Source: Nitratireductor sp. B36
GTDB taxonomy: Bacteria > Pseudomonadota > Alphaproteobacteria > Rhizobiales > Rhizobiaceae
Direction of reading: 5' to 3'
DNA: 64,000 nucleotides
Assembly (NCBI RefSeq): GCF_020833685.1
Contig: NZ_JACKZY010000001.1
Location: forward strand, 570,578 to 634,577
Shown: in pieces, positions 1 to 4,928 of the stretch
Layout: each line of letters starts with the position of its first letter
Numbering within the stretch: the stretch's first letter is position 1
Position numbers and translations under genes: made by a program
The notes under the pieces: model-generated
The model's input: only the letters and a program-made list of their open reading frames with translations
The model's database searches: none
What the model was told of the DNA's origin: nothing

Positions 1-1257
1 ATCAGCGGCGTCGATGAATGTGTGATTGATATGCTGATATACGTCCTCAGTGATCTTCTTTGGCAGCCGGATTACACTCCTCGCATCGAGGTTGGGTTGC
101 CCCAAATCAATCTTGATGCACCTCGCCTGTTAGCCCACTGCTTCCTCTACGAGCTAGATTCGTACCTTGCGAGCGATCCCGGACGAGACTTCGTGCGTTA
201 CATGGATGACATCGATATAGGTGTAGACACGATCGTGGATGCCAAACGGGCATTGAAGACCGTCGATCTCGTCCTTCAGACGAAGCAGGTTCGTTTGAAC
301 AGCGGCAAGACAGTCATTCTTACACGGTCCGAGGCTATTCGACATTTCCGAATTTTCGAGAACGCGCGGCTAGATTCGGTTCGGGCAAGCGTCGATCACC
401 GCGTGAAACACGGACTTCCGTTGGACCGGCAGCGAGTTCATGTTGAAGCCAGAATCAGGCAAGGACTTCGCAAAAAATCATTCGACGCAGGGAATGGCGA
501 AAAGGTTCTGAAGCGATGGCTGGGGCTTGCGGCTAAAACTGGCGCTGTGGTGAAGCCTGAAGTCCTCGAAGATCTCATCAAAAGAAGACCATCAGTTCGA
601 GAGAATGTTTATTCGTTTATAAGAAGTCGCCCCCTCACTCCATCGATTGCGGGCATTCTAGCAAGGGCAAGTCAGTCAGGCCTTCTTGTTGATGATGCCG
701 CGATGGTGGAGATGTCAAACTATCTTGTTGAAACATTTGTCAAGAATAAGCGATGTCACGCAATGCTTGAAGCGGTCATCGCGAGCAATGACCCACAAAG
801 CTATTTTGGACTCTATTCAAGGCTTTGGCTGCTGTCGAAATATGGGACGCCGGCCCAGATTCTCACAACTCTTCGAGACGCCCGAAACATTTGGTCGCCC
901 CATGAGCGGCTGGGTCGTCTGGCGGCTTCGTTCCTTCCCTTGTTTCACGGTTCGCCTGAAGAGAAGCCTCTTAAGCGGCTCCTCGCGGATACCTTAAATT
1001 CTGGGGTGCGCGACACATACAAATTCCATATGAAACTTGCGACCGATCTTCCAACATTTAAGGCAATGTTTGACGCGTTAAAGGCCCCAAATCCATCCCG
1101 TGGGACCGGCATTACACACGCAAAATTTCTATGCCTCCTATCCGCACTGAAAAATCCTGCCGCACCGGTCGCTCAGATTACAACCTTAAGAGCTAATCAC
1201 TCCCGAGCCTTTGAGGACGCTTACTACAAAGAGATAAGCAAGCGAGTCGGTGTCTAG
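1..1257 (+). CDS. Reverse transcriptase, 5'-truncated by window edge (possible defence-type RT)
   Basis: The frame is open from base 1, so the true start and the RT fingers lie to the left; the GTG at 22 is only the first start-like codon inside. Counted from that GTG, a GLPQ box (residues 25-28) is followed by the catalytic YMDD box (60-63, bases 199-210) and an LNSGKT stretch resembling the RT LNxxKT motif. About 300 further residues look mainly helical, with no maturase or HNH endonuclease motif recognised. RTs with a long helical C-terminal extension include the Abi/UG (DRT) antiphage group; group II intron RTs would show maturase and often HNH domains, and retrons usually carry YADD. GC is visibly lower than in the housekeeping genes, which suggests transfer. 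RT identity is firm; the defence role is inference. Confidence 0.85.
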   Translation: MSGVDECVIDMLIYVLSDLLWQPDYTPRIEVGLPQINLDAPRLLAHCFLYELDSYLASDPGRDFVRYMDDIDIGVDTIVDAKRALKTVDLVLQTKQVRLNSGKTVILTRSEAIRHFRIFENARLDSVRASVDHRVKHGLPLDRQRVHVEARIRQGLRKKSFDAGNGEKVLKRWLGLAAKTGAVVKPEVLEDLIKRRPSVRENVYSFIRSRPLTPSIAGILARASQSGLLVDDAAMVEMSNYLVETFVKNKRCHAMLEAVIASNDPQSYFGLYSRLWLLSKYGTPAQILTTLRDARNIWSPHERLGRLAASFLPLFHGSPEEKPLKRLLADTLNSGVRDTYKFHMKLATDLPTFKAMFDALKAPNPSRGTGITHAKFLCLLSALKNPAAPVAQITTLRANHSRAFEDAYYKEISKRVGV

Positions 1258-1604: not shown

Positions 1605-4600
1605 TTAGAAGCGGACGTTCAATGTGACGTTGCCTGAGTGGTCAGTCACTCCGGACCAAAACAGCCCGCCATAGGAAATGTCCAGAGTGGCGGCGCTGCC
1701 GAGCGTCATTTCAAGGCCGGCGTTTAGAACCAGTTGGTCACTGGCCAGCGGCACTCCCGCGATTGCTGCACTCTCGCCGCCGGAGGCAAACGATAGCTGA
1801 GAGGTCGGCGTCCCTCCAAAAGCGTGTCGCCACCCAATTGTTCCACTGAGAGACGCATTCGTGCTGCCCCATCCGATGTCCGTTTCGGCGCGTAGGCCAA
1901 GCGTGGTGAAAGTGGCGGAAACTCCATCCCCGGCCGCGCTCAGAGCCGCAGAGCCTCCACTCTCGGCAAACCCCTCGGTGGACAGCCGCACATGAGCAAG
2001 GTTGGCGAAGGGTTCCAGTCGCGCACCTCCGGCCTCAAGCTGGTAGGCTGCTTCACCCCACGCTTGCAGCGTCCGGGCATTGTAGCTGGCCGAGGTCTGA
2101 TCGGCGAAGCCGGAGAACGCCACTGCACGGCTGGTTTCCAGCCTATGCCAGCCGTGGGCAAGCCCGCCCTGCAGACTGAGCCCGTCCCAATGACCGCCGC
2201 CATAAATGCCAAGCGTATAGCTGTCGGCGGTGCCGGAGGAGGAACGCATATCAACCCCATAGCGAGAGCGGGAAAAGCCACCGAAGACGCCAAACCGATA
2301 TACATCCAGGAACGCTGCATCGCCGCCCACCAGCAAACCGCCAACGCTGCGGTCGAGCGGGGCGGCATTGCCGTCGCTATCCCATCGTCCCCATGCGCCA
2401 AATCCACGCGTCCACAGACCCGGACGTCCAAACATCGCATGGTCTGCTCCGGCAGCCGAATTGGCACCTGTTTCACCCAATTGATCCCGAAGCCGATCCA
2501 TCGCGCCATCGCGTGGGAAGCGACTGTCTTCCAGAAGCACCGTCTTCATGGAAGCGTGGATTTCTCCCGTGAGGCTGTCGAAGGCCGCGCGGGCGTCGTC
2601 CTCGTCGCCGGAAATTCCGAGCAACGCGTCGAAGACGGCATTTCCACTGCCCAGCGCCTCGAGCGGACCTGCTATCGCCATCTGATTGGGTGTGTCAGCA
2701 ATATCGGAGAAGAAGACTGCCTGTTCAGAGTGCAGATGGACATTGGTCGCATCATAGCCGAGCGTGAAGTCAAGGAACACGTAGTCATCGGTTGGGCGAG
2801 CCGTATCGAATGTTCCGCTTACGCTGCCGGCGGAGATGATGGTGTAGGTTCCGGGCGTATAGGTCGACCCGTCATCGGTGCCGTTCTCCGGCGAAACATG
2901 CACCACACCACCATTGATTGTAACCGGACCGGCAGCGTCCAAAAGGTCGTTGTGTGTGCCGGCAGTGAAGCCGCCGCCCGAAAGCTCGACCTCATAGACC
3001 GAACCCGGATTGAAGAGGACACTGGCCGCACTCAACGTTCCGATGGAGTTGCCGGGAGCAAGCCGTCCGCCCGATCCCACTGTGGCGGTCCCCGTCAATG
3101 TTCCTGTCCCTCCGACAATGCCCCCATTGAGGGAAACCACATTGCCCCCAAGGCTCCCATTGACCAGAAGCGCGCCCCCGGAGATTTGCGAAACTCCGGT
3201 AAATCCCGAGGAATCCCCCGTCAGGACAGTTTGGCCGGCGAGCTGGTAGAGCCGACCTTCGCCGATCATATCGACTGCGAACTCGTGAGCGCTCCCGGTG
3301 TGATTGAAGAACAGTTTTGCGTCCTCGTGGTCTCCGAACCACAGCTCCGGCGCGTCCAGGTGGCCCGGCGCAACTGCCGTCTGACCGGCGGCAGCACCGA
3401 TATTGAGCGTTCCTTCAGAGGTCGCGTTGAAGCCCAGATAGGTTCGATTGGCGACGGTCACCCGTCCGCCCTCCGCGATCGTCAGCGTGCCGGTGCCCTC
3501 TTCTGCAATGAAAAGGTGGTCGCCTGCCAGGTCGGCATTCGGACCGCTGACCAGAGCCTCCCCCTCGCCGGTGGGCGCATAGCCAAGGGTGATGGTTGAG
3601 GTGGCCGAGACTGTGCCGCCGGTGATGGCAAGCTCGCCCCTGCCTTCATCGCCCACAATCAACTCGCCATCGGCATTCAGTTCCGAATCCGCACCAGAAA
3701 CATTCACCGTTCCGACCGTGTCCTGCTGCGCACCGACATAGACGTCGGAGGTGCTCACCTCGCCGCCATCAGCGATGGTCAGCAGTCCAGTTCCCCCATC
3801 GGAATTGCCCAGGTAAACACCAAGATCTGTCGTGAGCTGCGAGCCGGGGCCGGTGACGAGCGTCGTGCCATCACCCAGATCGCCGATGAACAAATAGTCG
3901 GAAGATGAGAGTGTGCCCCCCGATGTCAGCGTGAGTGTTCCGCTCGCGCCGACATCCGCTCCCAGGGTTATCTCGCCCGCATCCGACCAGCTTGCATTGT
4001 CAACGATCAGGGTGCCCTGCCCCGAACTGTCATGGGATCCCAGATACAGATTGCCATGGTTCCCAAACACCACCGCATTGTCTGAGAGAGTAATCTGGCC
4101 GATACCGCCCGTGCCGACATAGGTGTCTGCGCCCATGGTCCAGTTCGAACCGGCTCCCGTGACGGTCAAAGTTCCCGTTCCGCCACCCTCACCGATCGTG
4201 ACATATCCGTGGGACAGGAACGTGGTCCCGTTTTGGATATTGAGTGCACCGGATTCGATGCGCCCCACTCTCGTGTCGCCTGTGACCGTCAAGTTGGCAT
4301 TGTCGAATGTGGCGAAGCTGCCGCCGCCACCGGACGAGTGGCCGATCAGGAAATCCGCTCCGGCAAAGACCGATGCTCCGTTGCTGGCTTCAAGCGCACC
4401 AAGTCCGGAAAAACCGACAATCATGTTCGCACTGTTGGCATTGAGTTGGGCTGTCGAACCGGTCAGGCGAACCGTCCCTTGCGTGCTGTTGCCCTGCGCG
4501 ATCAGAATGGCAGCAGCGTCTACGGTCGCATCCGTTATGTCGAGTGTGCCCGTCCCTTGCGAGCCCACGTAAAGTGTCGCGCTGTTAACCCATTGCGACG

Positions 4601-4928
4601 TGGCGCCTGTAATGATGACGTTCCCGATCCCCGTCGGCGTTGCGCCGAGCACCCCTTGCGTGTTGTTGACAACCCCGCCATCCGAAATGATCAGCGTTCC
4701 GAGGCCGAGATCCCCAACGGTCAGCGTATCCCCGATGTTCCAGCTATCCGGCTGGGTTCCGCCGCCCGTTCCGATGACGGTTTCCGTGGCACCTCCGTCG
4801 ATGACCGCCTGTGCCAGAGCCGCTCCAGGCAATGCGGTCGATGCCATCAGCGCCATGAACGAAGCCTGGACGGTCCGGCAAACCTGTTTGCGCTCTTTCA
4901 ACTCATCTTGGTTGGACTTTTCCTGCAC
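1605..4928 (-). CDS. Autotransporter with passenger repeats and C-terminal beta-barrel
   Basis: A 1107-residue surface protein of the type V secretion family. The N-terminus is charged (many K, E, R, Q) and followed by a hydrophobic stretch ending in an ALAQA-type cleavage site near residue 40, an extended signal peptide. Residues 45 to about 640 consist of degenerate repeats of roughly 35-45 residues around GTLTI-x-DGG or LxVG cores, typical of passenger-associated beta-helix repeats. The last ~270 residues form the autotransporter beta-domain, ending in an aromatic residue (NVRF) as barrel proteins do. It starts at GTG with an AAGGGGA ribosome site. The passenger ligand is unknown; adhesion or biofilm matrix is the usual role in the family. 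It shares an upstream 15-base motif with the next operon. Confidence 0.9.
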   Translation of the reverse strand: MQEKSNQDELKERKQVCRTVQASFMALMASTALPGAALAQAVIDGGATETVIGTGGGTQPDSWNIGDTLTVGDLGLGTLIISDGGVVNNTQGVLGATPTGIGNVIITGATSQWVNSATLYVGSQGTGTLDITDATVDAAAILIAQGNSTQGTVRLTGSTAQLNANSANMIVGFSGLGALEASNGASVFAGADFLIGHSSGGGGSFATFDNANLTVTGDTRVGRIESGALNIQNGTTFLSHGYVTIGEGGGTGTLTVTGAGSNWTMGADTYVGTGGIGQITLSDNAVVFGNHGNLYLGSHDSSGQGTLIVDNASWSDAGEITLGADVGASGTLTLTSGGTLSSSDYLFIGDLGDGTTLVTGPGSQLTTDLGVYLGNSDGGTGLLTIADGGEVSTSDVYVGAQQDTVGTVNVSGADSELNADGELIVGDEGRGELAITGGTVSATSTITLGYAPTGEGEALVSGPNADLAGDHLFIAEEGTGTLTIAEGGRVTVANRTYLGFNATSEGTLNIGAAAGQTAVAPGHLDAPELWFGDHEDAKLFFNHTGSAHEFAVDMIGEGRLYQLAGQTVLTGDSSGFTGVSQISGGALLVNGSLGGNVVSLNGGIVGGTGTLTGTATVGSGGRLAPGNSIGTLSAASVLFNPGSVYEVELSGGGFTAGTHNDLLDAAGPVTINGGVVHVSPENGTDDGSTYTPGTYTIISAGSVSGTFDTARPTDDYVFLDFTLGYDATNVHLHSEQAVFFSDIADTPNQMAIAGPLEALGSGNAVFDALLGISGDEDDARAAFDSLTGEIHASMKTVLLEDSRFPRDGAMDRLRDQLGETGANSAAGADHAMFGRPGLWTRGFGAWGRWDSDGNAAPLDRSVGGLLVGGDAAFLDVYRFGVFGGFSRSRYGVDMRSSSGTADSYTLGIYGGGHWDGLSLQGGLAHGWHRLETSRAVAFSGFADQTSASYNARTLQAWGEAAYQLEAGGARLEPFANLAHVRLSTEGFAESGGSAALSAAGDGVSATFTTLGLRAETDIGWGSTNASLSGTIGWRHAFGGTPTSQLSFASGGESAAIAGVPLASDQLVLNAGLEMTLGSAATLDISYGGLFWSGVTDHSGNVTLNVRF

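Follow-up and report, generated by a model that had tools for sequence, protein, structure and literature searches.

What kind of reverse transcriptase (RT) lies at the left edge of the Nitratireductor sp. B36 stretch studied here, and does it work alone? The window, by which we mean the whole stretch of 64,000 nucleotides analysed (contig NZ_JACKZY010000001.1, G000:C1:570578-634577), opens inside the RT gene. A sequence-only reading of the window had taken this gene for a defence RT of the UG/Abi group, possibly with an RNA or a partner gene upstream. Our analysis showed that it is a complete, intact member of a known family, UG13a, as judged by its profile match, and our preferred reading of it is a Class 1-like polymerase of the defence-associated reverse transcriptases (DRTs), solitary and ordinary in kind.

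The first 1257 bases of the window, on the plus strand, hold codons 182-599 (the last 418) and the stop codon of a 599-codon gene. On the same contig extended leftward (L002, in which a window position equals the L002 position minus 15000), the full, intact gene occupies L002:14458-16257 (+). Its start, sought by the leftward extension that the sequence-only reading had proposed, lies 543 bases left of the window; since the same genome holds it, the truncation is due to the window edge only. Starting at base 1, frame 1 has no stop before the TAG at 1255-1257, and the three boxes previously noticed in it are in place on the plus strand: GLPQ, which we take to be RT motif B, at 94-105, the catalytic YMDD at 199-210 and LNSGKT at 295-312. 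In an alignment of 26 rows, one of them the window sequence itself, D250 and D251 of YMDD and N281 and K284 of LNSGKT are invariant, and D162 of motif A is nearly so; the catalytic triad (D162, D250 and D251) is intact. The structure model and the alignment place the part of the RT core inside the window (palm and catalytic motifs, residues 182-296) at 1-345 (+). The low GC content remarked on earlier also holds, with 49% for the RT gene, compared with 59-62% in the DNA that follows it directly and 63-66% at the start of L002.

Based on the PADLOC profiles, the RT belongs to RT_UG13a (PDLC03749, a candidate DRT), which it matches with 730 bits and an E-value of 5.8e-220, compared with 124 bits for the next family, UG21. 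A chance match is excluded by such an E-value to one family. The match is full-length, covering residues 1-595 of 599 in the protein and positions 1-587 of 589 in the profile. When ten diverse homologs (30-45% identity) were checked singly, RT_UG13a was the best family for all ten, with 581-731 bits, while the next family reached at most 172. The fact that all 26 alignment members match RT_UG13a was not used as evidence, because many other UG families match all 26 too. In the source genome, this RT is the sole match to the PADLOC general RT model at an E-value of 0.001.

We considered and rejected an origin from a group II intron or a retron, because the profile scores are far under their cutoffs and Rfam gave no match to such an RNA in the loci searched. 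The group II intron maturase family TIGR04416 (NCBIfam) scored 76 bits where the cutoff is 300, no maturase family exceeded its cutoff, and the sole retron model listed in NCBIfam scored 19 bits against a cutoff of 235. As the sequence-only reading had stated, the protein has no recognised maturase or HNH motif; no endonuclease or maturase domain of Pfam or NCBIfam matched it. Additionally, a search of 132,985 bases over six loci at the Rfam gathering threshold returned two tRNAs and no group II intron or retron RNA. The intron RNA and the maturase domain that the sequence-only reading had named as counter-evidence to a defence RT were thus not seen. UG13a resembles group II intron RTs (GsI-IIC and others) in its core and differs from them in lacking intron RNA and any maturase or endonuclease match, carrying a helical domain instead.

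This helical domain spans residues 297-599 (346-1254, +). For the Paracoccus protein, which is 98% identical, AlphaFold2 with an alignment of 26 sequences gave a model (mean predicted local distance difference test score, 89.2) in which the RT core is followed by 303 residues of helices and loops only, in agreement with the roughly 300 further helical residues noted from the sequence. We tentatively read this domain as alphaRep/HEAT-like, similar to those of the Abi and Class 1 DRT polymerases. Of the 50 rows listed in a structural second look, nine align over 378-466 residues, across both domains: DRT6 (447), DRT4 (447 and 445), UG15 (444), AbiK (458, 466 and 455), Abi-P2 (387) and AbiA (378). 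The other 41 rows, which include group II intron, diversity-generating retroelement (DGR) and retron RTs and the non-coding RNA (ncRNA)-dependent DRT2 and DRT9, align over 307 residues at most. The single-gene, untemplated DRT6 and DRT4/UG15 superpose on both domains of UG13a, yet with 13-14% identity over the alignment. AbiK, Abi-P2 and AbiA also align over both domains, and in this comparison UG13a differs in having no HEPN match in Pfam at an E-value of 0.1. Profile and predicted fold agree, and the placement in the UG/Abi (DRT) group, as first suggested, is supported on both.

According to PMC13174585, an alphaRep domain is typical of Class 1 DRTs, and the members studied so far synthesise untemplated DNA. 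We prefer an untemplated mechanism for UG13a because its fold aligns full-length with systems that are untemplated as far as they have been studied. By this analogy, we consider it probable, at roughly 60%, that UG13a is a single-gene system whose DNA polymerase is protein-primed, needs no template and aborts phage infection. We infer for it template independence, protein priming, oligomerisation, a trigger, an abortive outcome and defence itself, in the following steps. The RT would act alone, as AbiK and DRT4 do, and would oligomerise. DNA synthesis would be primed on a hydroxyl residue of the RT itself and would yield single-stranded DNA, with no RNA serving as template. This DNA would be stabilised, or its action triggered, by phage infection, and would then lead to the arrest of cell growth and of phage replication. 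Among open-licence main texts, we found no experimental study of UG13a.

To place the RT among its relatives, we compared 36 loci. A genome scan with a four-sequence profile returned 38 loci (L011-L048), ranging from Paracoccus aurantiacus (98% identity) down to distant RTs; the six weakest (L043-L048) were left out, and the remainder were joined by the window's own locus and three from plasmid records, namely Azospirillum sp. B510 (72.5% identity), Sinorhizobium (40.5%) and Leptospira weilii (29.8%). Homologs with UG13a as their best family occur in Alphaproteobacteria, Betaproteobacteria, Cyanobacteria, Firmicutes and Cloacimonadota. In a class-wide search, a full-strength UG13a was found in one of 385 genomes, the window's own, and three more matched only at 7e-25 to 3e-37. 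No UG13-like RT was found in phage records at 1e-10, and viral contigs yielded four matches, two of them weak. In L017, L033, L038, L040 and L042, the RT copy is divided between frames or only partly open; therefore, the gene may often be lost.

An RNA beside the gene would point to a different chemistry. UG13a could be Class 2-like, as DRT2, DRT9 and DRT10, with a structured ncRNA beside or inside the gene being reverse-transcribed into repetitive DNA. We consider this unlikely, since the full-length fold fits the untemplated group and just 45 bases separate the RT gene from the upstream open reading frame (ORF) ORF4 in the window's locus. Furthermore, the conserved structured RNA that the sequence-only reading had proposed to look for near the RT was not found, either in Rfam, where a relaxed threshold around the RT gene gave no match of note, or in the 600-base flanks of 17 of the 36 loci. 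Among these 17 loci, flanks resemble each other on both sides in the near pairs L002/L011 and L012/L015 and, for 92 bases upstream, in the near pair L023/L024; the only other similarities are two weak, apparently incidental ones, L020/L021, in opposite orientation, and L007/L015. For the orthologs in L012, L013 and L015, identity is 86-89% at the protein level and 77-82% in the coding DNA, and their 600-base flanks have no detectable similarity to those of the window's gene. A template RNA encoded in cis would be expected to be common to such close orthologs, so the unlike flanks speak against one, not decisively. Synonymous sites gave no excess conservation that would mark an overlapping RNA, with the best 20-codon window at 0.50 compared with a shuffle 95% point of 0.54 in nine sequences. 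Flanks, Rfam and synonymous sites thus gave no sign of a conserved RNA beside or across the gene, in a comparison that had no positive control and for that reason is not decisive. Relatives of DRT10 (UG17) were sought as such a control; there was one homolog in 349 genomes, seven plasmid relatives were too distant at about 30-35% identity, and none occurred in viral contigs or phages.

The second question is whether the RT has a protein partner. Upstream of it, on the same strand and with the RT last, lie a Type ISP/IIG restriction-modification enzyme identified by profiles (1629 codons, L002:4860-9749, +), SIR2 (473 codons, L002:9746-11167, +; PDLC04085, 740 bits), HerA (695 codons, L002:11164-13251, +; PDLC04106, 1048 bits) and ORF4 (354 codons, L002:13348-14412, +), which has no Pfam or PADLOC match and one NCBIfam match under its cutoff. 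SIR2 and HerA are adjacent genes with full-length profile matches, which identifies them as the two-gene SIR2-HerA system. Partner-like genes are therefore present, as had been suggested for the upstream side, and the RT could belong with Type ISP, SIR2, HerA and ORF4 to a five-gene layered system, in which it might, for instance, form the final, abortive layer once restriction has failed. The co-directional order would suit such a system, with 4-base overlaps at the ISP/SIR2 and SIR2/HerA junctions followed by gaps of 96 bases (HerA-ORF4) and 45 bases (ORF4-RT). So would the conservation between the two carriers of the row, in which SIR2, HerA, ORF4 and RT are 97-98% identical and one ISP stretch is replaced. 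Nevertheless, these two carriers, the window's own locus and Paracoccus (one of the 35 other UG13-family loci), look like one recent transfer, and not one of the four upstream genes was found in any of the 28 loci with at least 8 kb upstream among the 34 others. For this reason, we read the upstream genes as defence-island neighbours rather than obligate partners and regard the five-gene system as decidedly unlikely.

Four other close SIR2 relatives (385 genomes, E-value 1e-60) are each paired with HerA, and none has the UG13 RT within the 16-19 kb fetched. At L060:5715-10069, the SIR2 of a SIR2-HerA pair comes directly after a Type III restriction gene and shares 4 bases with it, as at the ISP/SIR2 junction, which would favour a layered system; restriction systems may carry SIR2-HerA as an add-on. 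ORF4 was found in three of 372 genomes, its own included, and on a Paracoccus plasmid, and had no relative in viral contigs. Its relatives stand among restriction-modification genes, which again suits a layered system: a Type III methyltransferase in L063 (by profile), Type I restriction genes in L064 (by eye) and a cytosine methyltransferase in L010 (by annotation). ORF4 is a candidate accessory of restriction systems, and the stretches fetched for L010, L063 and L064 do not carry the UG13 RT. Most likely, Type ISP, SIR2-HerA and ORF4 are separate defence modules on the same integrative element. An all-against-all ORF comparison of the 36 loci returned no recurring defence gene or plausible partner beside the RT, and its recurring clusters consisted of UvrA and other ABC ATPases, UvrB, RpoD, small three-locus clusters and shadow frames. 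A conserved partner protein was rejected on the lack of a recurrent defence neighbour.

Within its family, the window copy has an unusual setting, at the end of a defence operon on what we read as an integrative conjugative element. GC content drops from about 65% to about 50% across the defence block, in which the genes directly upstream of the RT have about 50-60%, and returns to 59-62% beyond it. By eye, genes further upstream presumably serve type IV secretion and plasmid-type replication or encode a relaxase; about 42 kb left of the window lies a large serine recombinase. Past the RT stop, 236 bases (1258-1493) are about 98% identical to Paracoccus aurantiacus, and this identity stops sharply at 1493, which, from this sequence comparison, we take for its right end on the element. 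A search with exact 12-14-base words for a repeat marking both ends returned two 12-base matches only, neither at the expected left end. Just beyond the right end, at 1605-4928 (-), lies a gene for a long beta-repeat protein with a C-terminus that looks autotransporter-like by eye. The window's copy and that of Paracoccus are 94-96% identical in DNA apart from the ISP stretch L002:8024-9327, which overlaps the specificity domain. Because this stretch diverges strongly amid such similar DNA, it is likely that the ISP gene has had its target-recognition part exchanged.

Several points weigh against the solitary, self-priming polymerase. The class of UG13, Class 1 or Class 2, is not stated in the open-licence texts searched. 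By sequence, the PDB entries nearest to the RT core are group II intron RTs; Foldseek also puts these first, on the RT core, and by Z the structural second look tops with group II and DGR RTs as well. Additionally, helical repeats match many folds. In the RNA comparison, no known DRT RNA served to show that aligned flanks would reveal one, and the Leptospira RT is preceded, 162 bases away, by a 197-codon gene annotated as a restriction endonuclease. The priming residue is a further point. That of AbiK is given as Tyr44 in PMC9508834, and the loop of UG13a that is equivalent to the AbiK priming loop by helix order (residues 36-45) contains no tyrosine, serine or threonine; no counterpart of Tyr44 was seen. 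Another candidate is Tyr590 in the C-terminal DAYY (1216-1227, +; Tyr590 at 1225-1227), by speculative analogy with DRT3b, whose priming residue is reported as Y666. In this DxYY motif, Tyr590 is kept in 20 of the 24 homologs having a letter there. The other four have Phe or His instead, and for this reason Tyr590 as the priming residue stays a guess. A bolder proposal would make UG13a a separate line of self-priming, template-free polymerases using Tyr590, as DRT3b is reported to use Y666, and would have this element employ it as the final, abortive layer of a restriction-SIR2-HerA operon in which target recognition is exchanged from host to host; we consider it a long shot.

The settings of the homologous copies bear on whether the RT serves defence at all. 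UG13-family RTs adjoin the 3' ends of uvrA or uvrB in L022, L023, L024, L026 and L028. The uvrA gene lies 151 bp from the RT in L022 (convergent), and ends upstream of it at 112 bp in L024, 654 bp in L023 and about 1.5 kb in L028; in L026, uvrB abuts the RT, also convergently. Since the orientation of uvrA differs between L022 and L024, with RTs 53% and uvrA 82% identical, repeated insertion at one hotspot is suggested. The rpoD gene was found upstream of related RTs at 174 bp (L021), 3.4 kb (L020) and 8.7 kb (L008). In three of 19 loci scanned, tRNA genes stand 0.2-0.6 kb from the RT (L013:9683-9757, L014:9318-9408 and L016:12002-12078), as in tRNA-targeted islands. A self-mobile retroelement, or a gene with a housekeeping function close to those for DNA repair, would account for homologs lying directly at uvrA, uvrB or rpoD 3' ends in several genomes and for those that are single genes between metabolic genes, as in L007. 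The RT of L013 is also flanked by an 11-base direct repeat, compared with a control maximum of 10, which is attainable by chance in 14 trials. In the other 13 of the 14 loci with solitary copies examined for target-site duplications, the longest direct repeat is within shuffled controls; L007 has a 12-base inverted repeat, compared with a direct-repeat control maximum of 11. Together with the lack of intron RNA and of any endonuclease or maturase match, and with the patchy distribution of full-strength UG13a across the class, this makes a non-defence role highly improbable.

The studied DRT families make differing kinds of DNA, and an intact, apparently unstudied family is therefore a promising place to seek a further chemistry. 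UG13a lends itself to such work: it is a single gene without obvious RNA or partner, its fold is predicted with confidence, and homologs occur across several phyla. Additionally, because some copies of the RT are solitary and others stand behind SIR2-HerA, this locus would offer a clean test of cooperation between defence genes.
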